NCBI RefSeq assembly: GCF_000814845.2
Contig: NZ_CP010431.2
Location: forward strand, 310,001 to 374,000
Length of the DNA: 64,000 bases
Direction: 5' to 3'
Origin: Pandoraea sputorum
Lineage (GTDB): Bacteria > Pseudomonadota > Gammaproteobacteria > Burkholderiales > Burkholderiaceae
Part shown: positions 4,830 through 18,859 of the stretch, piece after piece
Numbering within the stretch: position 1 is the stretch's first letter
Layout: every line of letters starts with the position of its first letter
The notes under the pieces: model-generated
Seen by the model: the letters and a program-made list of their open reading frames with translations, nothing else
What the model was told of the DNA's origin: nothing
The model's database searches: none
Program-made: the position numbers and the translations under genes

Positions 4830-6530
4830 TCAGAAAAGAAAGTAGCGTTGGGCCATGGGCAATACGGTGGCAGGCTCGCACGTCAGCAGTTGCCCGTCGG
4901 CAATGACCTGATAGGTCTCGGGATCGACGCTGATGTTCGGCAGCCAGTCGTTATTGATCATGTTGGCCTTGGTCACCTGCCGGATATTGCGTACCGGCAC
5001 GATGCGTTTGGCCAGCCCGAAACGACCGGCCACGTCGCCATCGTACGCTGCTTGCGAGACGAACGTCAGCGACGTGCGCGCCAGCGCGCCTGCCCGTGCG
5101 CCGAACATTTCGCGGTAATGCACCGGCTGCGGCGTCGGAATCGACGCATTCGGGTCGCCCATCAGCGCCGTCGTGATCATGCCGCCCTTGAGAATAAGCG
5201 ACGGCTTCACGCCGAAGAACGCCGGTTCCCACAACACCAGATCGGCCCACTTCCCGACTTCGATGGACCCGATTTCATGCGCCATGCCGTGCGTGATCGC
5301 CGGGTTGATCGTGTACTTCGCAACGTAGCGTTTCACACGAAAGTTGTCCGACGCCGACGGGTCCGTCCCCAGTGCGCCGCGTTGCACCTTCATCTTGTGC
5401 GCCGTCTGCCAGGTGCGCATCACCACTTCCCCGACGCGCCCCATGGCCTGCGAATCCGACGAAATCATCGACAACGCGCCGAGATCGTGGAGGATGTCTT
5501 CGGCCGCAATCGTCTCGCGACGAATGCGCGACTCGGCAAAGGCAATGTCCTCCGCAATCGCCGGATCGAGGTGATGGCAGACCATCAGCATGTCGAGATG
5601 TTCGTCGAGCGTGTTGACGGTGTAAGGCCGCGTCGGATTGGTGGACGACGGCAGCACGTTCGGTTCGCCGCAGACCTTCAGAATGTCCGGCGCGTGGCCG
5701 CCGCCGGCACCCTCGGTGTGATACGTGTGGATCGTACGGCCCTTGATGGCCGCGACGGTCGCTTCGACGAAGCCACCTTCGTTGAGCGTGTCCGTGTGAA
5801 TCGCGACTTGCGTGTCGGTGGCGTCGGCCACCGAGAGGCATGCATCGATGGCCGCAGGCGTCGACCCCCAGTCCTCATGCAGCTTCAGACCGATGGCCCC
5901 CGCTTCGATCTGCTCCATCAACGGCGCGGGCTGACTGACGTTGCCTTTGCCGAGAAAGCCGAGGTTGATGGGCCAGCCGTCGGCGGCCTGCAACATGCGC
6001 TCCATGTGCCACGGTCCTGGCGTGCAGGTGGTCGCATTGGTGCCCGTCGCGGGACCGGTGCCGCCGCCCAGCAGCGTCGTCACACCCGACGACAGCGCTT
6101 CTTCGATCTGCTGCGGGCAGATGAAGTGAATATGCGAATCGATGCCACCGGCCGTGACGATCATGCCTTCACCGGCGATGACTTCGGTCGCGCCGCCGAG
6201 CGGGATCGTCACGCCGGGCTGGATGTCGGGGTTCCCGGCCTTGCCGATGCCCCAGATGCGTCCGTCCTTCAGGCCGATGTCCGCCTTGACGATGCCCCAA
6301 TGGTCGATGATGACGGCATTGGTAATGACGGTGTCGACCACGTCCGCGCGGGTGCGTTGCGATTGCCCCATGCCGTCGCGAATCACCTTGCCGCCGCCGA
6401 ACTTCACTTCTTCGCCGTAGATCGTGTAGTCGCGTTCGATCTCGACGATGAGTTCCGTATCGGCCAGACGCAACCGGTCGCCCGTGGTGGGGCCGAACAT
6501 TTCCGCGTAGGCGCGGCGAGAGATCTTCAT
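4830..6530 (-). CDS. ureC: Urease subunit alpha UreC
   Basis: Catalytic subunit of nickel urease (urea + H2O to carbamate + NH3), cytoplasmic, 566 aa. Active-site residues are all present, each one position below Klebsiella numbering: Ni ligands His133 and His135 (SHIHF), carbamylated Lys216 (GLKLHEDWG), His245, His271 and Asp359, plus the mobile-flap Cys318/His319 (MVCHH). It overlaps ureB by 4 nt (ATGA). Nothing suggests inactivation. Confidence 0.98.
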
Positions 6531-7619: not shown

Positions 7620-7922
7620 TCATGGAATCGGGTGATGCACGGTGACGAGCTTGGTGCCGTCGGGAAACGTAGCTTCGACCTGAATGTCGGGAATCATTTC
7701 GGGCACGCCTTCCATGACGTCGTCACGCGTGAGCAGCGTCGTGCCGTAATGCATCAGGTCGGCGACGGTGCGTCCGTCGCGCGCGCCCTCCATCAGTGCG
7801 GCGCTGATGAACGCCACGGCTTCCGGATAGTTCAGCTTCAGGCCGCGCGCGCGCCGACGCTCGGCCAGCAGGGCGGCGGTGAAAATGAGCAGCTTGTCTT
7901 TTTCGCGGGGGGTGAGCTTCAT
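7620..7922 (-). CDS. ureA: Urease subunit gamma UreA
   Basis: Structural gamma subunit, exactly 100 aa. The family opening [11 protein letters not shown] is visible, then the [10 protein letters not shown] helix and the C-terminal [19 protein letters not shown] strand. It follows the amino-acid ABC ATPase gene by 46 bp and precedes the HupE-like gene by 82 bp. Unusually it is separated from ureD by about 2.3 kb of transporter genes. Confidence 0.98.
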
Positions 7923-7968: not shown

Positions 7969-8691
7969 TCATTGTGCGATGAACCGCTGCAATTCCGGCG
8001 TTGCGGGTTGCGTGAAGAGCTGTTCCGGATCGCCGGACTCCCAGATCTTCCCCTGATGCATGAACACCACGCGATCCGATACATGACGTGCAAAGCGCAT
8101 CTCGTGCGTGACGAGAATCAGCGTCATGCCTTCGGCGGCGAGGTCTTCCAGCACCTTGAGCACTTCCGCGACGAGTTCGGGATCGAGCGCCGAGGTGATC
8201 TCGTCGCACAGTAGCACCGAAGGATGCATCGCAAGTGAACGGGCAATCGCCACGCGTTGCTGCTGACCGCCCGAGAGTTGCGACGGGTAGCTGTCGAACT
8301 TGTCGGCCAGCCCCACTTTGGCGAGCATCGTGCGGGCGACTTCGCGGGCCTCGTGCTTCGCAGTCTTCTTGACGACCTTCTGCGCGAGCATCACGTTTTC
8401 GCCCGCCGTCAGATGCGGAAACAGGTTGTACTGCTGGAATACCATGCCGACCTTCAGACGCAGCGCGCGAAGATCGGTGTCGCGTGCACCGACCAGCACG
8501 CCGTCCACGTCCACGCTACCCGCATCGAACCGCTCAAGACCGTTGAGTGTGCGCAGCAGTGTGCTCTTGCCCGAGCCGCTCTTGCCGATGATCGACACGA
8601 CCTGACCGCGCTCGACATCCATGTCGATGCCACGCAGCACGGGGTTCTCGCCGAAGCGCTTTTGCATGCCCCGGACCTTAATTAGCGACAT
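7969..8691 (-). CDS. Polar amino-acid ABC transporter ATPase
   Basis: Cytoplasmic ATPase of a PAAT-type (GlnQ/GltL/HisP class) amino-acid importer, 240 aa. It shows Walker A GKSGSGKSTLL, the Q-loop VFQQYNLFPHLT, the signature LSGGQQQRVAIARSL, Walker B LLCDEITSALD and switch His ILVTHEM. ATG 8691 was chosen for the AAGGAAA ribosome binding site and the family start MSLIKVRGMQKRFG; the frame stays open further upstream inside the permease gene. It overlaps the upstream permease by 14 nt. The specificity is unknown because no binding protein is adjacent. Confidence 0.93.
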   Translation of the reverse strand: MSLIKVRGMQKRFGENPVLRGIDMDVERGQVVSIIGKSGSGKSTLLRTLNGLERFDAGSVDVDGVLVGARDTDLRALRLKVGMVFQQYNLFPHLTAGENVMLAQKVVKKTAKHEAREVARTMLAKVGLADKFDSYPSQLSGGQQQRVAIARSLAMHPSVLLCDEITSALDPELVAEVLKVLEDLAAEGMTLILVTHEMRFARHVSDRVVFMHQGKIWESGDPEQLFTQPATPELQRFIAQ

Positions 8692-9328
8692 GGAGTTTCC
8701 TTTCGAGATGACGCGCCCACAGCGACAGCGGATAGCAGGCGGCGAAGTAGAGCAGCGCAACGAGGCCGTACACGGTGAACGGCTGGAACGTCGCATTGGT
8801 GAGCATGGTGCCGGTCTTGGTGAGTTCGTCGAAGCCAATGATCGACGCGAGCGCCGTGCTCTTGACGACCTGCACCGAGAAGCCGACGGTCGGCGCAATC
8901 GCGATGCGCAGCGCCTGCGGAAGGATCACGTGACGCAGTTGTTCGCCGTAACGCATCGCCAGACTGGACGACGCCTCCCATTGACCGTGCGGAATGGCGT
9001 CGACGCAGCCGCGCCAGATTTCCGTCAGGTAAGCGCTCGTGTAGAGCGTGAGACACACGGCCGCGGCCACCCACGGCGACACTTCCAGCCCGAGCAACGG
9101 CAGTCCGAAGAACACCAGAAAGAGCTGCATGAGCAGCGGGGTGCCCTGAAACACTTCGATGTACAGCGCCACGGCGCGCGCGGCCCATTGCACGCGCCCG
9201 ACGCGAATCACCAGAAGCAGCAGCGCGACCAGGCCGCCGCACACGAAGGCGATGGCGGATAGCGCAAGCGTCCAGCGTCCGGCGAGGATCAGCCCGCGCA
9301 GCATGTCCACGATAGAGAACTCGGTCAT
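8678..9328 (-). CDS. Polar amino-acid ABC transporter permease (second subunit)
   Basis: Inner-membrane permease of the HisMQ family, 216 aa, with about five transmembrane segments. The EAA coupling loop is visible as EASSSLAMRYGEQLRHVILPQALR (split here: EASSSLAMRYG then EQLRHVILPQA), and VALYIEVFQGTPLLMQ is the usual motif before it. ATG 9328 overlaps the stop of the other permease (ATGA), so the pair is translationally coupled. The two permeases should form the heterodimeric channel with the ATPase encoded next. Confidence 0.92.
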   Translation of the reverse strand: MTEFSIVDMLRGLILAGRWTLALSAIAFVCGGLVALLLLVIRVGRVQWAARAVALYIEVFQGTPLLMQLFLVFFGLPLLGLEVSPWVAAAVCLTLYTSAYLTEIWRGCVDAIPHGQWEASSSLAMRYGEQLRHVILPQALRIAIAPTVGFSVQVVKSTALASIIGFDELTKTGTMLTNATFQPFTVYGLVALLYFAACYPLSLWARHLERKLHVAN

Positions 9329-10005
9329 CGCGCGCCTCCCTTGACCATGCCGCGAAACAGTCGTCGTGCGGCGCGCATCAGTACACGACGAAGCGCGATG
9401 GCGAGCACCAGATAGAGCGCGGTGACGATCAGGTAACTCTCGAAGGCGCGGAATGTGCGCGACTGCACGAAGTTGGCCGCATACGACAGATCGGGGACGG
9501 AGATTTGCGACACGACGGCCGAACCGAGCATCACGATGACGATCTGACTGGCGAGCGCGGGGAACACCTTGGCGAACGCTTGCGGCAGGATCACGTGACG
9601 CAGGATTTGTCCGCGCGTCATGGCAAGCGAGAGACCGGCTTCGGACAGCCCGCGCGGTACGGCACGCATGCCTGCGCGAATGATCTCGGTCGCGTATGCG
9701 CCGAGGTTGAGACTCATGGCGATGATGGCGGCGCTCGTTTCGTCGATATGAATACCGACGCTGGGCAGCCCGAAGAAGATGAAGAACAGCTGAACGATGA
9801 ACGGCGTGTTGCGGAACAGCTCGACGTACAGTCCGGCGAAAAACCTGAACCCGTTCGAACCTTCCTCGCGCGCGGCGGCGCACAGCGCACCGATGACCAC
9901 GCCGATGACCGTGGAGACGGCTGTGAGCGCAATCGTTAGCGCGGCACCGCGCACGAACAGCGCGAAGTACTGCCGCAGGTCGGCGAAATCAAGGACGTAG
10001 TGCAT
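9325..10005 (-). CDS. Polar amino-acid ABC transporter permease (first subunit)
   Basis: HisMQ-family permease, 226 aa. It has the motif LYVELFRNTPFIVQLFF and EAA loop EAGLSLAMTRGQ followed by ILRHVILPQAF. It is the first gene of the transporter-ureA-hupE-ureBCEFG run and lies 268 bp downstream of ureD. The region upstream of the ATG is pyrimidine-rich with no recognisable ribosome binding site. A sigma-54-like element about 75 bp upstream could drive it. No substrate-binding protein gene is found next to it. Confidence 0.92.
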   Translation of the reverse strand: MHYVLDFADLRQYFALFVRGAALTIALTAVSTVIGVVIGALCAAAREEGSNGFRFFAGLYVELFRNTPFIVQLFFIFFGLPSVGIHIDETSAAIIAMSLNLGAYATEIIRAGMRAVPRGLSEAGLSLAMTRGQILRHVILPQAFAKVFPALASQIVIVMLGSAVVSQISVPDLSYAANFVQSRTFRAFESYLIVTALYLVLAIALRRVLMRAARRLFRGMVKGGAR

Positions 10006-10050
10006 TAGGCGGCATGAGGTGAAAGGGGGGATGCAAAGGATCGGCGCATC

Positions 10051-10067
10051 TGGTCAGACCGGTCGAT
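10051..10067. promoter_or_regulatory. Shared palindromic element upstream of the amino-acid permease
   Basis: TGGTCAGACCGGTCGAT is the partner of the urtA element (two mismatches in 17). It lies 46-62 bp before the permease ATG and at or just after the predicted sigma-54 start point, as at urtA. Confidence 0.4.
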
Positions 10068-10077
10068 ACAGTGAGGT

Positions 10078-10094
10078 AGCAGGATTCGTGCCTG
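10078..10094 (-). promoter_or_regulatory. Sigma-54-like promoter of the amino-acid permease-ure operon
   Basis: On the minus strand AGGCACG-AATC-CTGCT keeps GG-N10-GC (GG 10091-10092, GC 10079-10080) with two deviations from the consensus. Predicted start is near 10067, giving a ~60-nt leader. It would drive the transporter and, by readthrough, ureA-hupE-ureBCEFG. Confidence 0.6.
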
Positions 10095-10244
10095 GCGCTG
10101 TCGGGTGCTGCGCAGGCTTGCAGGAAGCCGCGGCGGGGTCCGTCGATCAACGAAGTGGGGGAGAGGTAGAACGTCCGATTCGTTTTCGGTGCGCCCGATT
10201 TTGGTGCGCGAAAACGCTGGTGTCGAAGGTGTGATGCCGACGTT

Positions 10245-10261
10245 GTCACCATATTGGTGCG
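10245..10261. promoter_or_regulatory. NtrC-like site between ureD and the amino-acid permease
   Basis: GTCACC-ATATT-GGTGCG is an inverted repeat (CACC-N5-GGTG) close to the NtrC consensus, about 155 bp upstream of the sigma-54-like element. Two further GGTGCGC half-sites lie at 10188-10194 and 10203-10209, inside an 8-bp inverted repeat (CGTTTTCG 10181-10188 / CGAAAACG 10209-10216). Confidence 0.5.
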
Positions 10262-10273
10262 TCGGCATCGCCT

Positions 10274-11119
10274 TCACGTCGCCCAGATCCGAAGCGGCTC
10301 GGCCGGTGCCCCATGCACGATCGGACGTAGCTTGAGCCAATGAGCGATCAGCAATTGGCGCACCGTCTCCATCTCTCGGCCGAGCACGCGCAACACGAGG
10401 ACATTACCGGGCAGGCACGTGATACCGGCACGGATGTCCTCGCTGAACGGCAGTCCCTCGGCCAGGGTCTCGGCCAACTCGCGTGTACAGGCTGGCCCGA
10501 CCGCCCAGAGTGCCGCGAACACGGGGAAGCTCGCGAGGCCGGTCGCGCCGGTGCGCTGTGGATCATCCGCCCCGAGCACCGCCTGCTCCGCCCACAGCAG
10601 ACGATCCTGCGCGTCGCGCAGTGCGAAATTCGAGCGCCAGCGGCCTTCTGTCCACTGCTCACCTGCCGCCTGACGGCCGAGCAGCGTCGCGTCCCAGCCG
10701 ATGACGGTCGCGTTCTCGCCAAGACGCACCGTCACGCGCTGACGCGCATCCGCATGCTCGAACACGATGTTCTCCAGCGGCAGCCAGTCGAGCTTCGCGC
10801 CGTCGTGCACCGTCAGCGTAATGTCCTGCGTGCCAAAGCGGCCTTGCGACTTGTACCACTTCGTCGCACCGGGCGTCGTCAGCACGGCGTGGCTGTCGTG
10901 GCCGACATCGATGTCGATGGACAACGCGTCGCCACCCGCGATGCCGCCGGGCGGATGCACGACGACCGCGTGACAGATGCCGGGGCCTTCCGGATGCAAC
11001 GACTTCTGTACGACGAGTGGCCCCTGATGACGGCGCGTTGCGAGCACCGTGCGGGCGTGATGGCGCTCGAAGCCGAGCGTCAGCTCGGCGTGCCAGCCGG
11101 TTTCCGTCGACGCCATCAC
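10274..11119 (-). CDS. ureD: Urease accessory protein UreD
   Basis: Scaffold protein (UreD/UreH) that binds apourease and connects it to UreF-UreG during nickel insertion, 281 aa. The family core VVVHPPGGIAGGDAL is at about residues 52-66, followed by TTPGATKWYKS, and the end is ..EPLRIWAT. The ATG overlaps the urtE stop by 4 nt, so ureD is translationally tied to the urea-transporter operon instead of to ureA. The first two codons are both ATG. Confidence 0.96.
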   Translation of the reverse strand: MMASTETGWHAELTLGFERHHARTVLATRRHQGPLVVQKSLHPEGPGICHAVVVHPPGGIAGGDALSIDIDVGHDSHAVLTTPGATKWYKSQGRFGTQDITLTVHDGAKLDWLPLENIVFEHADARQRVTVRLGENATVIGWDATLLGRQAAGEQWTEGRWRSNFALRDAQDRLLWAEQAVLGADDPQRTGATGLASFPVFAALWAVGPACTRELAETLAEGLPFSEDIRAGITCLPGNVLVLRVLGREMETVRQLLIAHWLKLRPIVHGAPAEPLRIWAT

Positions 11120-11817
11120 ACCGCCACCATGTGCCGTACGCCGTCGGCTTCCATGTTCTTGCCCAGTCCGCTTGCGACGATGGCGCCGCGGCTCATCACG
11201 CGATAGTGGTCGGCGAGCTCAAGTGCGAAGTCGTAGTACTGCTCGACGAGCAACACCGTCATGCCGCGCTCGTCCACCAGACGTCGCAGCGTGCGACCGA
11301 TGTCCTTGATGATCGACGGTTGAATGCCTTCCGTCGGTTCGTCCAGAATCAGCAGTTGCGGGTCGCTCATGAGCGCGCGCCCGATGGCGAGTTGCTGTTG
11401 CTGCCCACCGGACAGATCGCCGCCGCGTCGCTGCTTCATGTCGCGCAACACGGGGAACAACTCGTAGATGTCGTCCGGTACGCCGCGCTTCGCTTCACGC
11501 GACGGGCGGCTTGCGGCTCCGATCAGCAGGTTCTCTTCGACGGTGAGGCGCGGGAAGATCTCGCGACCTTGCGGCACGTACGCCATGCCGCTCGACACGC
11601 GGGCATAGGACGGGGCCGACGTCAGCGTCTTGCCGCGCCACGCGATGCTGCCCGACTTCACCGGCACCACACCCATGAGGCATTTGAGAAGCGTCGTCTT
11701 GCCCACGCCGTTGCGTCCCAGCAGCACGGTGAGTTGTGCGTCGGGCACCGTGAACTCCACGTTGCGCAGGATGTGACTACCGCTGTAGAACTGATTGAGT
11801 GCGTGAATTTCCAGCAT
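11116..11817 (-). CDS. urtE: Urea ABC transporter ATPase UrtE
   Basis: LivF-type ATPase of the urea importer, 233 aa. It has Walker A GRNGVGKTTLLK, signature LSGGQQQQLAIGRAL, Walker B LLILDEPTEGIQPSII and the Q-loop YVPQGREIFPRLTVEENL. ATG 11817 lies 2 nt after the urtD stop; the open frame further upstream is inside urtD. It is followed directly by ureD, coupling urea import to urease assembly. Confidence 0.96.
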   Translation of the reverse strand: MLEIHALNQFYSGSHILRNVEFTVPDAQLTVLLGRNGVGKTTLLKCLMGVVPVKSGSIAWRGKTLTSAPSYARVSSGMAYVPQGREIFPRLTVEENLLIGAASRPSREAKRGVPDDIYELFPVLRDMKQRRGGDLSGGQQQQLAIGRALMSDPQLLILDEPTEGIQPSIIKDIGRTLRRLVDERGMTVLLVEQYYDFALELADHYRVMSRGAIVASGLGKNMEADGVRHMVAV

Positions 11818-11819
11818 GG

Positions 11820-12686
11820 TCAGCGTCCCAGATACGATTCGATCACGCGTTCGTCGCGTTGCACGGCGTCGAGCGTGCCTTCGGCGAGTACCCGGCCTTC
11901 GGCCATCACGGTGACGAGACCGGACTCCCCCGCGAGCGCGGCGACGAATGCCATATCGTGCTCGACCACCATCATCGAGCAATGTCCGCGCAGACGGTTG
12001 AGCAACTCGGCCAGTTGGGCCGTCTCTTCGTCGGTCATGCCAGCGGCGGGCTCATCCAGTAACAGTAACTGCGGCTGCTGCATCAGCAACATCCCGATCT
12101 CGAGTCGCTGCTTCTGACCGTGCGACAACTGACCCGCGCGCACATGCGCCTGATGCTCCAGATGCGTGAGCGCCAGCACTTCCTCGACGCGCCGTTTGAT
12201 GGTCGGCGTCAGCACGGCCCAAAGCGCGTGGAACCAGCGCTTGTCCCCCGCGCACGCGAGTTCGAGATTTTCCCAGACGCTGTGATGCTCGAACACCGTC
12301 GGCTTCTGGAACTTGCGCCCGACCCCCGCCTGCGCGATGGCCGGTTCGTCCAGACGCGTGAGGTCGAGTGTCTGACCTAGGAAGGCGCGTCCCGAGTCGG
12401 GGCGCGTTTTGCCGGTGATCACGTCCATCATCGTCGTTTTACCTGCGCCATTGGGGCCGATGATGCAGCGCAGTTCGTCCGTCTTGATCGACAGCGACAG
12501 ATCGTTCAACGCGCGAAAGCCGTCGAACGAAACGCAGATGTTCTCCAGATACAGGATGAGACCGTGCGACGTGTCGATTTCACCGGGCACCACGAGGTGC
12601 GACATGCCCGTCGCGTCGCCGCTGACCGAAACGGAAGCCTGCGGCGCATCGGCCTGCTGCCAACTGATGTCGTAGTCGGGTCTCAT
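11820..12686 (-). CDS. urtD: Urea ABC transporter ATPase UrtD
   Basis: LivG-type ATPase of the urea importer, 288 aa. It has Walker A GPNGAGKTTMMD, signature LSHGQKQRLEIGMLL (typical of UrtD), Walker B LLLLDEPAAGMTDEE and switch His VVEHDMAFV. There is a ~45-residue N-terminal extension before the ABC domain. ATG 12686 overlaps the urtC stop by 4 nt. Confidence 0.96.
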   Translation of the reverse strand: MRPDYDISWQQADAPQASVSVSGDATGMSHLVVPGEIDTSHGLILYLENICVSFDGFRALNDLSLSIKTDELRCIIGPNGAGKTTMMDVITGKTRPDSGRAFLGQTLDLTRLDEPAIAQAGVGRKFQKPTVFEHHSVWENLELACAGDKRWFHALWAVLTPTIKRRVEEVLALTHLEHQAHVRAGQLSHGQKQRLEIGMLLMQQPQLLLLDEPAAGMTDEETAQLAELLNRLRGHCSMMVVEHDMAFVAALAGESGLVTVMAEGRVLAEGTLDAVQRDERVIESYLGR

Positions 12687-13885
12687 GCGCGGTCTCCGGA
12701 AACGGAATGGGGCACGTCGCCTTCCGCAGCGACGGGGGCGTGGCGCTCGCGCTTGCGCGTGAGTTGCGTGACCAGACCCATCACGCCTTGCGGCAGCAGC
12801 AGTGGCACCAGCACGAACATCGCGCCGAGGAAGAACAGCCAATATTCAGCGAAGTAGGCGGTAAAGAAGCTCTTCGCACCGTTGACGATGAACGCACCGG
12901 CAATCGCACCGACGAGTGAGCCGCGTCCGCCGATGGCGACCCAGATCGCCATTTCGATGGAGTTGACCGGGGCCATTTCGCTGGGGTTGATGATACCGAC
13001 CTGCGGCACATAGAGCGCACCGGCGATGCCGCACAGCATGGCCGACAGCGTCCAGACGAACAGCTTGTAGCTGAGCGGTCGATAGCCGAGGAACATGGCG
13101 CGGGACTCCCCGTCGCGAATGGCGGTGACGACGCGTCCGAACTTCGAGACCACCAGTGCGCGGCACAGCAGGAACGCGCCGACCAGCACGGCGAACGTCA
13201 CCAGAAACAGCACCGTGCGCGTGTTCGCCGAGGTGATCGAGTAGCCCAGAATGCGCTTGAAGTCGGTGAAGCCGTTGTTGCCACCGAAGCCGGTCTCGTT
13301 GCGATAGAACAGCAGCATGGCGGCGAACGTCAGCGCTTGCGTGATGATCGACAGATAAACGCCCTTCACGCGCGAGCGGAACGCCAGATACCCGAAGAGC
13401 CACGCGACCACGCCCGGCAGCGCCACGACGAGGAACATCGCCCAGGCGAAGTGCTCGGTGCCGGTCCAGTACCACGGCAGTTCCTTCCAGTCGAGGAACA
13501 CCATGAAGTCGGGCAGATCGCTGTGATACACGCCGTCACGCCCGATGCCGCGCATGAGATACATCCCCATTGCATAGCCGCCGAGCGCGAAGAACAGACC
13601 GTGCCCGAGGCTCAGAATGCCGCAGTACCCCCACACGAGATCGAGCGCCAGTGCGGCAATCGCGTAGCACATGATCTTGCCGACGAGCGTCATGGCATAT
13701 GCCGACAGATGCAACGGATGTGTAGCGGGCAGTACCAGCGCACACACCGGGACGATCACCATCACCGCCAGCACGAATGCCAGCAGCACCGGGGCGACGT
13801 GTTTCGGTAGCAGGCGTGCACGCGCGGGCACGTCCAGTGGCACCGTCGGGGCGACGCCGTCAGGTAGAAAGTTCGACGTCTGCAT
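12683..13885 (-). CDS. urtC: Urea ABC transporter permease UrtC
   Basis: LivM-type inner-membrane permease, 400 aa, with 8-10 hydrophobic segments. The conserved LVWGYCGILSLGHGLFFALGG (key part YCGILSLGHG) near residue 90 and IAGAFIVNGAKSF near 340 identify UrtC. The ATG abuts the urtB stop with no gap. It pairs with UrtB to form the channel. Confidence 0.96.
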   Translation of the reverse strand: MQTSNFLPDGVAPTVPLDVPARARLLPKHVAPVLLAFVLAVMVIVPVCALVLPATHPLHLSAYAMTLVGKIMCYAIAALALDLVWGYCGILSLGHGLFFALGGYAMGMYLMRGIGRDGVYHSDLPDFMVFLDWKELPWYWTGTEHFAWAMFLVVALPGVVAWLFGYLAFRSRVKGVYLSIITQALTFAAMLLFYRNETGFGGNNGFTDFKRILGYSITSANTRTVLFLVTFAVLVGAFLLCRALVVSKFGRVVTAIRDGESRAMFLGYRPLSYKLFVWTLSAMLCGIAGALYVPQVGIINPSEMAPVNSIEMAIWVAIGGRGSLVGAIAGAFIVNGAKSFFTAYFAEYWLFFLGAMFVLVPLLLPQGVMGLVTQLTRKRERHAPVAAEGDVPHSVSGDRA

Positions 13886-15508
13886 TCAGGCCTCCGCACT
13901 GCGCCCTTTGAGCGCAAACATGCCCTGCGGGCGTTTCTGGATGAACAGCACGATCAGGATCAGCACGGCGATCTTCGCGAGCACGGCACCCCACACGGGT
14001 TCGAGCAGTTTGTTGGCGATGCCCAGACCGAATGCGCCGACGATCGTCCCCGCGAGTTGGCCCACGCCGCCCAGCACCACGGCCATGAACGAATCGATGA
14101 TGTAGCTCTGACCGAGGTCCGGGCCGACGTTGCCGATCTGCGAGAGGGCGCAGCCGCCGAGACCGGCAATGCCCGCACCGAAAGCGAAGGCGTAGCTGTC
14201 CACGCGTCCCGTTTTCACGCCGACGCACGCGGCCATCGAACGGTTCTGCGTCACAGCGCGAATGAACAGGCCGAGGCGCGTGAGATTGAGCACCGACCAC
14301 GTGAGCGCCACCACGACCAGTGCGAACACCAGAATCACGATGCGGTTGTACGGCAGCATCAGATTCGGCAGCACAGCGACACCGCCGCTCATCCACGACG
14401 GATTGATGACCTCCACGTTCTGCGCGCCGAACAGCGTACGCACCGCCTGAATCAGGAGCAGGCTGATACCGAACGTGGTGAGCAGCGTCTCCAGCGGACG
14501 TCCGTACAAATGCTTGATGACGGTGCGCTCCAGCACGAATCCGAGCGCGGCGGCCACGACGAACGCGGCGGGCACGGCGGCGACGAGGTAGAAGTCGAAC
14601 GCCCCCGGCAGGAAGCGCTGGAATAGCGTTTGCACGACGTAGGTGGCATACGCGCCGACCATCAGAAACTCGCCGTGCGCCATATTGATGACGCCGATCA
14701 GGCCGTAGGTGATCGCCAGACCGAGTGCGGCGAGCAGCAGCACGCTACCGAGTGACAGACCGGCGAACACCGTGCCGAAGAACTCACTGCGGCGCTGTGC
14801 GGCGGCCAGTTGTGTGAGCGCGATGTCGGCGGCGCTGCGTACCGTGGCGTCGGGCTCGGCATAGGTGCCGTCCGCTTGCCTGGCGACGATGGGCAGCAGC
14901 AGGTCGCGCATCTGCGGATCGCCAGCGGAGGCAATCAGATCGATGGCTTCACGGCGTTTCTTCGGATCGGTGTCGTGCAGGGCCGATTGCGCCCAGAGCT
15001 GATCGAGACGTTTGAGCAACGCGGGATCGATCTCCTTCTGACGCGCTTGTTCGATCAACGTCTTGAACGCGGGCGACGGGTTCTGCAACATCGTGTCGAT
15101 GGCTTGCGCACGGGCGTCGTGATCGGTCGACAGCAGCGCACCGGCGGCGGCGGCCGTTGCCACCTTTGCGCGCAGCACGTTGTTCAGCGTCAGCGACCCG
15201 GCGTCGTCGGCTTTGACGGGCGCACCCGTGATCGGATCGACGTATTTGTCGTCCTTCTGAATCGCGAGGCGCTCGCCCACGGTCACGGCCGAGTCGTCGG
15301 CCAGTGCCTTGAGGAGTGCAGCCGCCTGCGGCGAACCGTCGGCGGCGAGGTGATCGATGGCTTGTGCCTTGGCGTCGAAATCGTCGCCCGCGAGGGCGGT
15401 AAGGTCGGCGTCGGTGACGGCGGCACGTGCGGGGTGGGAGAGGGTCAGCGCAGCGCCCAGTGAAAGCAGGACAAGGGCGGCAGCGGTCCAGCGTCTTATC
15501 GTTATCAT
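13886..15508 (-). CDS. urtB: Urea ABC transporter permease UrtB
   Basis: LivH-type permease, 540 aa from this start. It has the long periplasmic N-terminal domain typical of UrtB (roughly residues 30-235) before the membrane domain, which opens with LGLAITYGLIGVINMAHGEF. I chose ATG 15508 over ATG 15523. The former has AGAGG 6 nt upstream and starts a classic signal peptide (MITIRRWTAAALVLLSLGA...HPARA), while the latter abuts an intercistronic hairpin. Confidence 0.95.
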   Translation of the reverse strand: MITIRRWTAAALVLLSLGAALTLSHPARAAVTDADLTALAGDDFDAKAQAIDHLAADGSPQAAALLKALADDSAVTVGERLAIQKDDKYVDPITGAPVKADDAGSLTLNNVLRAKVATAAAAGALLSTDHDARAQAIDTMLQNPSPAFKTLIEQARQKEIDPALLKRLDQLWAQSALHDTDPKKRREAIDLIASAGDPQMRDLLLPIVARQADGTYAEPDATVRSAADIALTQLAAAQRRSEFFGTVFAGLSLGSVLLLAALGLAITYGLIGVINMAHGEFLMVGAYATYVVQTLFQRFLPGAFDFYLVAAVPAAFVVAAALGFVLERTVIKHLYGRPLETLLTTFGISLLLIQAVRTLFGAQNVEVINPSWMSGGVAVLPNLMLPYNRIVILVFALVVVALTWSVLNLTRLGLFIRAVTQNRSMAACVGVKTGRVDSYAFAFGAGIAGLGGCALSQIGNVGPDLGQSYIIDSFMAVVLGGVGQLAGTIVGAFGLGIANKLLEPVWGAVLAKIAVLILIVLFIQKRPQGMFALKGRSAEA

Positions 15509-15523
15509 GCGAAACCTCTGCAT

Positions 15524-15570: not shown

Positions 15571-16827
15571 TCAGACCTTGTCGGGCTTGCCTTCGTTACC
15601 CGCGATGAACGGGCTCCACGGCTGGGCGCGCACCGGCGCCTTCGTCTTCCACACCACGTTGAACTGACCGTCCGGGCGGATTTCGCCGATCATCACCGGC
15701 TTGTGCAGGTGGTGATTGCCGTCCATGACCATGTCGAAGCCGTCCGGCGACTTGAACGATTGGCCGATCATGGCGGTGCGCACCTTGTCGACGTCCACGC
15801 TGCCCGCCTTCTCGACGGCCTGCTTCCACATATGCATGCCAACGTAGGTGGCTTCCATCGGATCGTTCGTCACGCGCTTGTCGCCACCGGGCAGACCCTT
15901 GGCCTTCACGTAGGCGAACCATTCCTTCTTGAACGCTTCGTTGGTCGGGTTCTTGACCGACATGAAGTAGTTCCACGCGGCCAGATGGCCCACGAGCGGC
16001 TTGGTGTCGATGCCGCGCAATTCCTCTTCGCCAACGGAGAACGCGACGACCGGCACGTCCGTCGCCTTGATGCCCTGATTGCCGAGCTCTTTATAGAACG
16101 GCACGTTCGAATCGCCGTTGATCGTGGAGATCACGGTGGTCTTGCCACCCTGTGCGAACTGTTTGATGTTGGCGACGATGGTCTGATAGTCGCTGTGACC
16201 GAACGGCGTGTAGACCTCCTGAATGTCCTTGTCGGCGACACCCTTCGAGTGCAGGAAGGCGCGCAGGATCTTGTTGGTCGTGCGCGGATAGACGTAGTCG
16301 GTGCCGAGCAGGAAGAAGCGCTTGGCGCTGCCGCCTTCCTTGCCCATCAGATACTCGACTGCCGGGATCGCCTGCTGATTCGGCGCAGCGCCCGTATAGA
16401 AGACGTTCTTCGACATCTCTTCGCCTTCGTACTGCACCGGGTAGTAAAGCAGACCGTTGAGTTCTTCGAAGACAGGCAGCACCGACTTGCGCGACACCGA
16501 CGTCCAGCAGCCGAATACGGCGGCGACTTTGTCCTTGGTGAGCAACTGACGTGCTTTCTCGGCGAAGAGCGGCCAGTTCGAGGCGGGGTCCACGACCACG
16601 GCTTCGAGCGGACGGCCCATCACGCCGCCTTTGGCGTTGATGTCGGCAATGGTCATGAGGGCGACGTCCTTGAGCGACGTCTCCGAGATGGCCATCGTGC
16701 CCGAGAGCGAATGCAGGATACCGACCTTGATGGGCTGTTTGCTCTGCGCGAACAAGTTGGGCGCCATGCCGGTGAGCGATGCGGCGCCCGAGAGGGCCGC
16801 CATCTGGAGTAGCGTGCGTCGTTTCAT
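15571..16827 (-). CDS. urtA: Urea ABC transporter substrate-binding protein UrtA
   Basis: Periplasmic urea receptor, 418 aa, Leu/Ile/Val-binding protein fold (peripla_BP_5). Its N terminus MKRRTLLQMAALSGAASL carries a twin-arginine-like motif and a hydrophobic stretch ending at FAQ, so export may be by Tat. UrtA hallmarks include VGILHSLSGTMAISE, FGCWTSVSRKSVLPVFE and LYYPVQYEGEE. GGGGAAG lies about 8 nt upstream of the ATG. It is the first gene of the urea block and sits behind a strong sigma-54 promoter. Confidence 0.97.
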   Translation of the reverse strand: MKRRTLLQMAALSGAASLTGMAPNLFAQSKQPIKVGILHSLSGTMAISETSLKDVALMTIADINAKGGVMGRPLEAVVVDPASNWPLFAEKARQLLTKDKVAAVFGCWTSVSRKSVLPVFEELNGLLYYPVQYEGEEMSKNVFYTGAAPNQQAIPAVEYLMGKEGGSAKRFFLLGTDYVYPRTTNKILRAFLHSKGVADKDIQEVYTPFGHSDYQTIVANIKQFAQGGKTTVISTINGDSNVPFYKELGNQGIKATDVPVVAFSVGEEELRGIDTKPLVGHLAAWNYFMSVKNPTNEAFKKEWFAYVKAKGLPGGDKRVTNDPMEATYVGMHMWKQAVEKAGSVDVDKVRTAMIGQSFKSPDGFDMVMDGNHHLHKPVMIGEIRPDGQFNVVWKTKAPVRAQPWSPFIAGNEGKPDKV

Positions 16828-16846
16828 GGTACGTCTTCCCCTTTCC

Positions 16847-16863
16847 TGGTTAGACCGGTCAAT
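16847..16863. promoter_or_regulatory. Shared palindromic element upstream of urtA
   Basis: TGGTTAGACCGGTCAAT matches 15 of 17 positions with 10051-10067, upstream of the amino-acid permease. The core TGGT-N3-ACC has the shape of a GntR/FadR-type half-palindrome. It lies 20-36 bp before the urtA start, just downstream of the predicted sigma-54 transcription start, a position suited to a repressor. No regulator is assigned. Confidence 0.4.
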
Positions 16864-16881
16864 CCGGTATCGGGGAATTAA

Positions 16882-16897
16882 CGCAAGGGTCGTGCCA
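16882..16897 (-). promoter_or_regulatory. Sigma-54 promoter of urtA
   Basis: On the minus strand the sequence reads TGGCACG-ACCC-TTGCG, matching the sigma-54 consensus TGGCACG-N4-TTGC and the obligatory GG-N10-GC spacing (GG at 16895-16896, GC at 16883-16884). Transcription should start near 16871, leaving a ~45-nt leader before urtA. This implies RpoN and an NtrC-type activator. Confidence 0.8.
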
Positions 16898-16991
16898 GCG
16901 TGCTCCCATGAGGTGCGCAGGGCGTGGCGACGGGGGCGGGGGATAGATTTTCAGGAGGCCCGCTATGAGCGCGAGACACGGTGGTGCGACG

Positions 16992-17010
16992 GCGCGCCGT
17001 ATTGGTGCGC
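16992..17010. promoter_or_regulatory. NtrC-like site upstream of the urtA promoter
   Basis: GCGCC-GTATT-GGTGCGC approximates the NtrC consensus GCACC-N5-GGTGC with one mismatch in the left half. It lies about 100 bp upstream of the -24 element, a normal enhancer distance. The 10-mer TATTGGTGCG (17000-17009) recurs upstream of the amino-acid permease at 10252-10261. Confidence 0.5.
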
Positions 17011-17052
17011 ACCGACTTGGCGCGCGAACCTGTCCGTTCGCGCGCGAGGGCC

Positions 17053-17265
17053 TCAGACTTTGCGCGGCGACTCTACGGGCGGCGTGCCGTCATGAAAAAG
17101 GGATGTCAGAAGCGAACGCAGTTCCGCCGAGTCGGCGTGCTTGTGGACCGTGACCGCGTGCTGCACGGCCGCCTCCAGCAACTCGTTTTCGGAGTCTGCG
17201 CAAAGCGCTACCGAACAGTTCATTTCGCTGGGGAATTCCCGGCAATCGATGAATTTGCGAGCCAT
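17053..17265 (-). CDS. DUF1059 domain small protein
   Basis: Small cytoplasmic protein, 70 aa, matching the DUF1059 pattern: MARKFIDCREFPSEMNC at the N terminus, then a helical segment rich in Ala, Glu and His (LLEAAVQHAVTVHKH). Function unknown in the family. ATG 17265 has GGAGAG 6 nt upstream, so I prefer it to the in-frame start at 17304. It lies upstream of urtA on the same strand but beyond the sigma-54 promoter, so it may be an independent transcript. Confidence 0.75.
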   Translation of the reverse strand: MARKFIDCREFPSEMNCSVALCADSENELLEAAVQHAVTVHKHADSAELRSLLTSLFHDGTPPVESPRKV

Positions 17266-17437
17266 GATGCTCTCCTCGCACAAACAGACTGATGACGCAT
17301 GCATGAACCACAGCGAGCGATGAACGCTACGCGAAGTGGTTCAAAAAGTATAGGCCGCAGGGGATGAGATGACGGTAACGAGACCGGTTTTCTCTGCGTG
17401 ATGCCGCGCCAGGTGCGCAGGCCAGATCGGAGCGCGG

Positions 17438-17508
17438 GAATGCCCCGCCTGAGGGCATTCGACATGCCGCCCTGGCATTTTTTGATGCATGATTGGCATT
17501 CGTGCCAA
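17438..17508. promoter_or_regulatory. Cluster of GGCATTC palindromes upstream of the MFS gene
   Basis: Within 71 bp there are two good palindromes: GAATGCCC (17438-17445) with GGGCATTC (17453-17460), and TTGGCA-TTCG-TGCCAA (17493-17508). Between them are further CATGCC and TGGCAT half-sites (17462-17478). The heptamer GGCATTC occurs at 17454-17460 and 17495-17501 and inverted at 17438-17444. The last palindrome ends 16 bp before the MFS start, so these are probable operators, perhaps of the GlxA-type regulator encoded downstream. Confidence 0.5.
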
Positions 17509-17524
17509 ATAGGCTGACGGCAAG

Positions 17525-18859
17525 ATGACGGCGTCCGAAGACTTCTCACCGACTCGACATCACACCATGACCGATACCGTTGCCAGGCGCCCCGCGCCAC
17601 CTTCCGAACCCGCCGCGCCACCTTCCGAGCCCGCTGGGCATCAGCGCCGTCGACTGGGCCGACGCTATGCCGCCGTACTCGCCGCCTGTCAGGCGCTCTA
17701 TACGGCGGCGTTGTCCGTCGACCTGACGCTGACCGGTCTCGTCGGCTACATGCTGGCGTCCGACAAAGGGTATGCGACGCTGCCGTTCTCGCTCATTACC
17801 GTCGCTTCGGCAATTACGACGATCTTCGCGTCGATGCTGATTCAGCGCTTCGGCCAGCGGCTCGGCTTTGCGCTGGGGGCTCTGTTCGGCACCGTGGGCG
17901 GTCTGGTGTCGGTGATGGCGATCTACGAGAAGCATTTCGCGATGTTCTGCGCGGGGACGGCGTGCGTGGGCGTGTTTCAGGCGTTTGCGCGTTACTACCG
18001 GCTCGCGGCGGCGGACGTCGTGCCTGTCGAAGACAAGCCGCGTGCCATTTCCGTTGTGCTCACGGGCGGTGTGCTGGCCGCCGTGATCGGACCGGCGCTC
18101 GCGGCGGGCAGCAAGGACTGGCTCGCGCCGGTGACGTTCGCCGGATCGTATCTCGTCGTGACAATCCTTTCGGGCATCTCGTTGCTGCTGCTCGTCGGTT
18201 TTCTGCGCGACCTGCCGGTGCACGCGGCGGGTGGGGTAGCGGGCGGTGCGGCGGAGCTTCCGGCGCGTCCGCTCGGCGAGATCATGCGGCAACCGATTTA
18301 CGTCGCGGCACTCGCGAACAATCTGATCGGTTTCATGGTGATGATGTTCGTGATGACGGCGACGCCGATTGCCGCGGTCGCGTGCGGCCACAGCATCGAC
18401 GACGGCGCACACATCATCGAGTGGCATCTGGTTGGCATGTACGCGCCGTCGTTCTTCTCCGGTCATCTCGTCAAGCGATGGGGTGTGGTGCCGGTGCTGC
18501 TGCTCGGCATCGGCATGTCGGCGCTGTGCGGTGTTCTGGCACTGATGTCGACGAGTCTCGCGTACTTCTATGCGGCGTTGGCCTTTCTCGGCGTCGGCTG
18601 GAACTTCATGTTTGTGGGCGGCACGACGTTGCTCACGATGTCGTACCGTCCGGCGGAGCGCGCGCGTGCGCAGGCCGCGAACGAATTCATCACCTTTGCA
18701 GGCACTGCGCTGGCGAGTCTGTTCGCCGGGCAATTGCTGGCGCGTTTCGGCTGGGCCACGATCAATCAGGCGACGTTCCCGTTGCTGACGATCGCGGCGC
18801 TGGCGACCGTGTGGTACGCCGTCGATGCGAAGCGCCGTCCGGCGCACGCGACGGCCTGA
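17525..18859 (+). CDS. MFS transporter
   Basis: Major facilitator superfamily permease, 444 aa, about 12 hydrophobic segments with a central loop near residue 240. The N-terminal tail holds a 21-bp tandem duplication giving APPSEP twice. The loop between helices 2 and 3 contains RFGQRLGF, the MFS motif A region; otherwise it resembles the small MFS group often paired with regulators. The start is uncertain: ATG 17525 or ATG 17567 (15 codons later), neither with a strong ribosome binding site. The substrate is unknown. It is followed by a GlxA-family regulator 19 bp downstream, probably the same operon. Confidence 0.85.
   Translation: MTASEDFSPTRHHTMTDTVARRPAPPSEPAAPPSEPAGHQRRRLGRRYAAVLAACQALYTAALSVDLTLTGLVGYMLASDKGYATLPFSLITVASAITTIFASMLIQRFGQRLGFALGALFGTVGGLVSVMAIYEKHFAMFCAGTACVGVFQAFARYYRLAAADVVPVEDKPRAISVVLTGGVLAAVIGPALAAGSKDWLAPVTFAGSYLVVTILSGISLLLLVGFLRDLPVHAAGGVAGGAAELPARPLGEIMRQPIYVAALANNLIGFMVMMFVMTATPIAAVACGHSIDDGAHIIEWHLVGMYAPSFFSGHLVKRWGVVPVLLLGIGMSALCGVLALMSTSLAYFYAALAFLGVGWNFMFVGGTTLLTMSYRPAERARAQAANEFITFAGTALASLFAGQLLARFGWATINQATFPLLTIAALATVWYAVDAKRRPAHATA

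Follow-up and report, generated by a model that had tools for sequence, protein, structure and literature searches.

How urea import is switched on in Pandoraea is the question raised by a gene cluster in the window (the whole 64 kb stretch of DNA that was analysed), in which the urea transporter genes lie together with the urease genes on the minus strand. The initial annotation had predicted that urtABCDE-ureD is controlled by RpoN and NtrC. With high confidence, on the strength of the sequence and its conservation among relatives, we favour a reading in which a canonical sigma-54 promoter and an upstream array of NtrC sites would switch on urtABCDE-ureD under nitrogen starvation, with a second promoter probably serving an inserted transporter and the urease genes. 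The cluster is made up of the following genes.

15571 to 16827, minus strand: urtA, urea ABC transporter substrate-binding protein (TIGR03407, 599.4 bits, cut-off 492.75)
13886 to 15523, minus strand: urtB, permease (TIGR03409)
12683 to 13885, minus strand: urtC, permease (TIGR03408)
11820 to 12842, minus strand: open reading frame with urtD (TIGR03411, residues 96-340), the true start probably being inside the frame
11116 to 11982, minus strand: open reading frame with urtE (TIGR03410, residues 57-288)
10274 to 11119, minus strand: ureD (PF01774, 195.3 bits)
7969 to 10005, minus strand: ABC transporter of the polar amino-acid type, two permeases and an ATPase, between ureD and ureA
7620 to 7922, minus strand: ureA, urease gamma (PF00547)
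4830 to 6530, minus strand: ureC, urease alpha (PF00449)

Downstream of ureA follow hupE/ureJ, ureC, ureE and ureF, and ureB and ureG were recognised by eye only. On the other side, directly upstream of urtA, lies a small DUF1059 gene (PF06348; 17053-17262, minus strand).

In front of urtA, the minus strand had been said to carry TGGCACG-N4-TTGC with GG-N10-GC spacing, and this was found as described.

16883 to 16897, minus strand: sigma-54 -24/-12 element TGGCAC-N5-TTGC, reading TGGCACGACCCTTGC, sole exact match in the window and conserved

GG and GC stand ten bases apart within the TGGCAC-N5-TTGC frame, and the first base of the element is 70 bp 5' of the urtA ATG at 16827. Nowhere else in the 64 kb is TGGCACGNNNNTTGC matched without a mismatch. 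The motif alone is weak evidence genome-wide, with 12 exact matches to the pattern in the whole genome vs 6 for the pattern read backwards; by arithmetic from these counts, the chance expectation of a match on the right strand within 200 bp upstream of a given gene is about 1e-4 (about 1 in 10,000). From the -12 spacing, transcription of urtA is predicted to start at approximately 16870-16872, roughly 12 nt downstream of the GC (16883-16884).

A motif search in related genomes, as the initial annotation had proposed, supported the promoter strongly. Two sets of loci were used. The named set holds the best 80 of 582 confirmed urtA stretches, which are the closest relatives and not a sample (Pandoraea, Burkholderia, Caballeronia, Paraburkholderia, Trinickia, Cupriavidus, Ralstonia and two Pigmentiphaga), and the Pandoraea set holds the 30 loci with urtA from 32 genomes searched. 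Counts from these sets are not independent, owing to relatedness among the genomes and overlap between the sets (six of the seven Pandoraea loci in the named set appear to be common to both). With at least 10 of its 11 scored positions matched, a sigma-54 element stands at native spacing, no more than 200 bp before the start, in 78/80 named loci (best 80 of 582) and in all 30 Pandoraea loci, i.e. it is kept at fixed spacing before the same gene. Taking the best hit near each gene favours a motif, which for the urtA promoter is answered by controls with wrong spacing: at six wrong -12 spacings a score of 10 or more was reached in 1, 0, 0, 1, 1 and 0 of the same 80 named loci, and in 2, 0, 0, 0, 0 and 0 of the 30 Pandoraea loci. 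At the same score the reversed motif and the opposite strand each gave none in the 80. TGGCA and TTGC are invariant in the 78 named loci that have the element (best 80 of 582), partly through the picking of the best score per locus, and the neighbouring columns are variable. The two misses are the Pigmentiphaga loci (L053, L078), neither of which has the element within 400 bp of urtA. Among close relatives, Pandoraea anapnoica LMG 31117 has a UrtA that is 100% identical (rounded) to that of the window.

Further upstream, a GCGCC-N5-GGTGCGC dyad had also been pointed out. It is present at 16994-17010 (plus-strand spelling) and is the second of three boxes read on the other strand; the boxes on either side, one 15 bp further up and one 21 bp further down, had been missed.

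17008 to 17024, minus strand: NtrC-type box A, CGCGCCAAGTCGGTGCG, one half of a pair with B that is found in 28/30 Pandoraea loci
16993 to 17009, minus strand: NtrC-type box B, CGCACCAATACGGCGCG, overlapping A by 2 bp
16972 to 16988, minus strand: weaker box C, CGCACCACCGTGTCTCG, downstream of B

The array lies 75-127 bp upstream of the -24 element. Taken alone, the dyad is within chance, as the window holds 33 relaxed matches (up to 1 mismatch) vs a shuffle mean of 32.3, and 23/200 shuffles reach the highest NtrC-consensus score of the 260 bp before urtA. The boxes of the window have 10 of 14 consensus letters and are singly non-significant, and the outer halves of A and B are imperfect (GCGCC for GCACC). 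Exact matches to GCRCC-N5-GGTGC number only two in the window, and these are the abutting boxes A and B. Because the dyad by itself does not go beyond chance, conservation was used instead, and it is conservation within Pandoraea, where dyad and box A are kept together, that makes the dyad convincing.

The A+B pair is present in 28/30 Pandoraea urtA regions. Over these 28 loci the mean frequency of the top base per column is 0.92 across A-B and 0.84 across C, vs 0.42-0.50 in the flanks, and box B lies anywhere between 101 and 238 bp from the -24 element, so that the box sequence is kept while its distance to the promoter varies. A pattern search places box C 20 or 21 bp from B in 27 of these 28 loci, all but L120. 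The pair was not found in L130 and L131, the most distant Pandoraea loci (84% UrtA identity), where other high-scoring boxes lie 69 and 110 bp upstream. A search of the genome for A+B with 2 mismatches gave 14 matches, and the reversed pattern 12; of the 14, none is meaningful except the one exact match, at urtA, and one of the 2-mismatch matches, which lies in the second promoter described below, could be chance. An enhancer under selection in otherwise drifting DNA would look like the A/B/C array, and we infer that the overlapping A/B pair would function as such at variable distance. The overlap as such appears to belong to Pandoraea among the loci viewed by eye and by pattern, the strict A+B pattern having been run on Pandoraea only. 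Five Cupriavidus loci (L039, L040, L048, L052, L076) have two box-like sequences 36 bp apart, which is the A-to-C distance of Pandoraea and may be coincidence.

The build of the pair allows for a variant of this reading. A/B (GCGCC-N5-GGTGC joined to GCACC-N5-GGCGC, a near-palindrome with a box spacing of 15 bp) might be a distinct composite element and not two ordinary NtrC boxes, taking one NtrC dimer at a time or being shared with a second regulator, in which case urea import would be tuned unlike glnA. We offer this tentatively and consider it rather unlikely.

Whether the boxes are NtrC sites was approached with a matrix built from 123 boxes in 30 Pandoraea glnA promoters (duplicates removed). 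A box was admitted if at least 10 of its letters matched the published E. coli consensus TGCACCAnnnTGGTGCA, so the matrix is seeded with that consensus and shares its assumptions. With it, A, B or C is ranked first in 28/30 Pandoraea urtA regions, which extends to NtrC the support that the comparison of related genomes gave to the initial annotation; the 17-bp, two-fold layout of these boxes is like that of TGCACCAnnnTGGTGCA. Per region, no more than 5 of 100 shuffles (range 0-5) equal the top score, and the reversed matrix scores below the best hit in all 30. In the window itself box B ranks first, a poorly conserved sequence at 16901-16917 second and box A third, with box C outside the four best hits; in the nearest relatives (L103, L104 and L109) box C scores -0.6, -0.6 and -3.0. 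The sequence at 16901-16917 (CGCACCTCATGGGAGCA) was left out of the array: its score in the window is high, but among the four best matrix hits of each of the 30 loci a like sequence occurs at that place only in L105.

The genome as a whole (5.74 Mb) is consistent with this. It has one RpoN match (Sigma54_DBD, 225.8 bits) and one ntrC over the cut-off (main piece 617.7 bits), approximately 1.5 kb from glnA. The glnA promoter of the same genome combines a sigma-54 element with boxes such as TGCACCAATTTAGTGAT, and near-consensus boxes (TGCACCGATGTGGTGCT), equalled by 0/200 shuffles, are found in the region before amtB. The first gene behind the latter boxes resembles torF. Outside Pandoraea, the boxes were scored in the window and 18 of the best 80 named loci, hand-chosen to spread over genera. 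Best scores average 10.5 of 14 across these 19 (shuffles 8.7, reversed motif 8.6), and in 7/19 the best score is equalled by no more than 10/200 shuffles. In the Burkholderia cenocepacia locus (L026), for which NtrC control is published, 93/200 shuffles equal the best box, which does not stand out from chance; box scores offer little guidance at that locus. Box scores at single loci are weak evidence, and the weight is placed on conservation in Pandoraea.

The promoter might depend on sigma-54 and yet be served at A/B/C by another enhancer-binding protein. Candidates for such an activator would be the further NtrC-family matches in the genome, which fall below the ntrC cut-off, and A+B makes up a single long near-palindrome, whereas glnA has its boxes apart. 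Set against this are the matrix, which was trained on glnA and still puts a box of the array first in 28/30, and the reported strong fall of the corresponding B. cenocepacia genes in an ntrC mutant (PMC5491218); we regard a different activator as very improbable.

It is harder still to credit that urtA is expressed mainly from an ordinary sigma-70 promoter, with the sigma-54 element in a minor role. Promoters of GC-rich genomes may escape a simple consensus scan, and the one applied here to 16800-17540 of the window gave no sigma-70-like site; the key -24/-12 letters, moreover, are identical in 78/80 loci (best 80 of 582), which also speaks against this. A reading in which the dyads merely result from a terminator hairpin closing the DUF1059 gene upstream and take no part in regulation, as a GC-rich inverted repeat seen by eye next to box A in the window might suggest, was rejected as the least probable of all, since a terminator scan gave nothing at the boxes and a single hit at 17464-17478, away from the array, and since the gene is present in only 5/28 loci (the window, L166, L167, L168 and L172; about 1 kb of upstream DNA searched) vs the A+B pair in 28/30 with diverged flanks.

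A sigma-54 promoter with an NtrC array thus remains our reading for urtA, and a second promoter of this type is predicted between ureD and the inserted amino-acid transporter.

10079 to 10093, minus strand: second sigma-54-like element, AGGCACGAATCCTGC, matching at 9 of 11 positions, ahead of the inserted amino-acid ABC transporter
10245 to 10261, minus strand: NtrC-type box of the second promoter, CGCACCAATATGGTGAC, equalled by 0/100 shuffles
10192 to 10208, minus strand: NtrC-type box of the second promoter, CGCACCAAAATCGGGCG, ranked second in this gap of the window

The comparison took in 27 of the 29 other Pandoraea urtA genomes (G025 and G027 were left out) and the window, i.e. 28 loci, of which seven (L169, L171, L173, L176, L190, L191 and L192) have no permease match after ureD in the stretch compared and give no count. 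Wherever the gap is measurable, in the window and in 20 of the 27 relatives, the second sigma-54-like element occurs (21/21), a count to be read with the pattern having been written after its hits were seen and with the wrong-spacing controls covering the urtA promoter only. In each of the 21 the best box of the second promoter is equalled by 0 or 1 of 100 shuffles. An open reading frame of at least 287 codons follows the element in 16/21 loci, and the one such frame tested (L174:8033-8896) encodes a family-3 solute-binding protein (PF00497). No frame of the length of a solute-binding protein follows the second element in the window (9325-10300, minus strand) or in L166, L167, L168 and L172.

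The gene order fits urtABCDE-ureD as a unit, and the RpoN/NtrC control predicted for it from sequence is supported by conservation, likeness to the glnA boxes, the rpoN and ntrC genes of this genome and published work on relatives. The proposal needs extending at the urease genes from ureA on, which lie behind the second promoter that the initial annotation did not have. Since an amino-acid transporter with a predicted promoter of its own stands between ureD and ureA, transcription of the urease genes probably relies on the second promoter, read-through or a combination of the two.

The two promoters would then work as follows. In nitrogen-poor cells, phosphorylated NtrC would bind the array 75-127 bp upstream of the -24 element, contact the sigma-54 polymerase through looping of the DNA and open the promoter at 16883-16897 with its ATPase, so that urtABCDE-ureD would be transcribed; in ammonium-rich cells the urtA promoter would be silent. 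The variable distance at which the array is kept is one that an enhancer may have. The second promoter, of the same type, probably drives the inserted amino-acid transporter and the urease genes from ureA on. With import and urease genes behind two promoters of one type, nitrogen starvation could induce import and hydrolysis jointly, despite the intervening transporter.

Control of this kind is already known in related bacteria. Among the matches listed in our literature search, no title or abstract beginning dealt with RpoN/NtrC control of Pandoraea urea genes, subscription literature being mostly outside its scope. For Alteromonadales, Oceanospirillales, Rhizobiales and Rhodobacterales, a comparative study assigns urt genes to NtrC control (PMC5343134). 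An RpoN site of high significance is reported upstream of Bphy_2251, a urea ABC transporter gene of Paraburkholderia phymatum, and the motif searched for there (GGCACG-N4-TTGC) is the same as that before urtA; section 2.3 of that study differs from the present case in describing no NtrC boxes (PMC5979394). Nitrogen starvation is reported to induce Bphy_2251-52, among other genes, and mutation of rpoN to abolish the use of urea (PMC5748707). The NtrC box given for E. coli shares the 17-bp, two-fold layout and the GCACCA half with the boxes described here, whereas the Pandoraea A/B pair has GCGCC outer halves and overlaps at a spacing of 15 bp (PMC8743547).

The closest parallel is B. cenocepacia H111, in which the urt and ure genes also lie together and their expression is reported to need NtrC: RNA-Seq of an ntrC mutant gave log2 changes of -4.8 for the urea-binding protein gene and -5.9 for urtB, and neither urea nor nitrate could serve the mutant as sole nitrogen source (PMC5491218). 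The B. cenocepacia locus in our set likewise has a sigma-54 element, 75 bp before urtA. Together, this suggests that the nitrogen-control circuit of related genera extends to Pandoraea, with a well-conserved set of predicted NtrC sites, and it leaves the general view of such promoters unchanged. The urtA switch looks real but ordinary, and what goes beyond the known, in comparison with B. cenocepacia H111, is the overlapping A/B pair of Pandoraea and a two-promoter layout in which an amino-acid transporter with its own predicted promoter stands between ureD and ureA.
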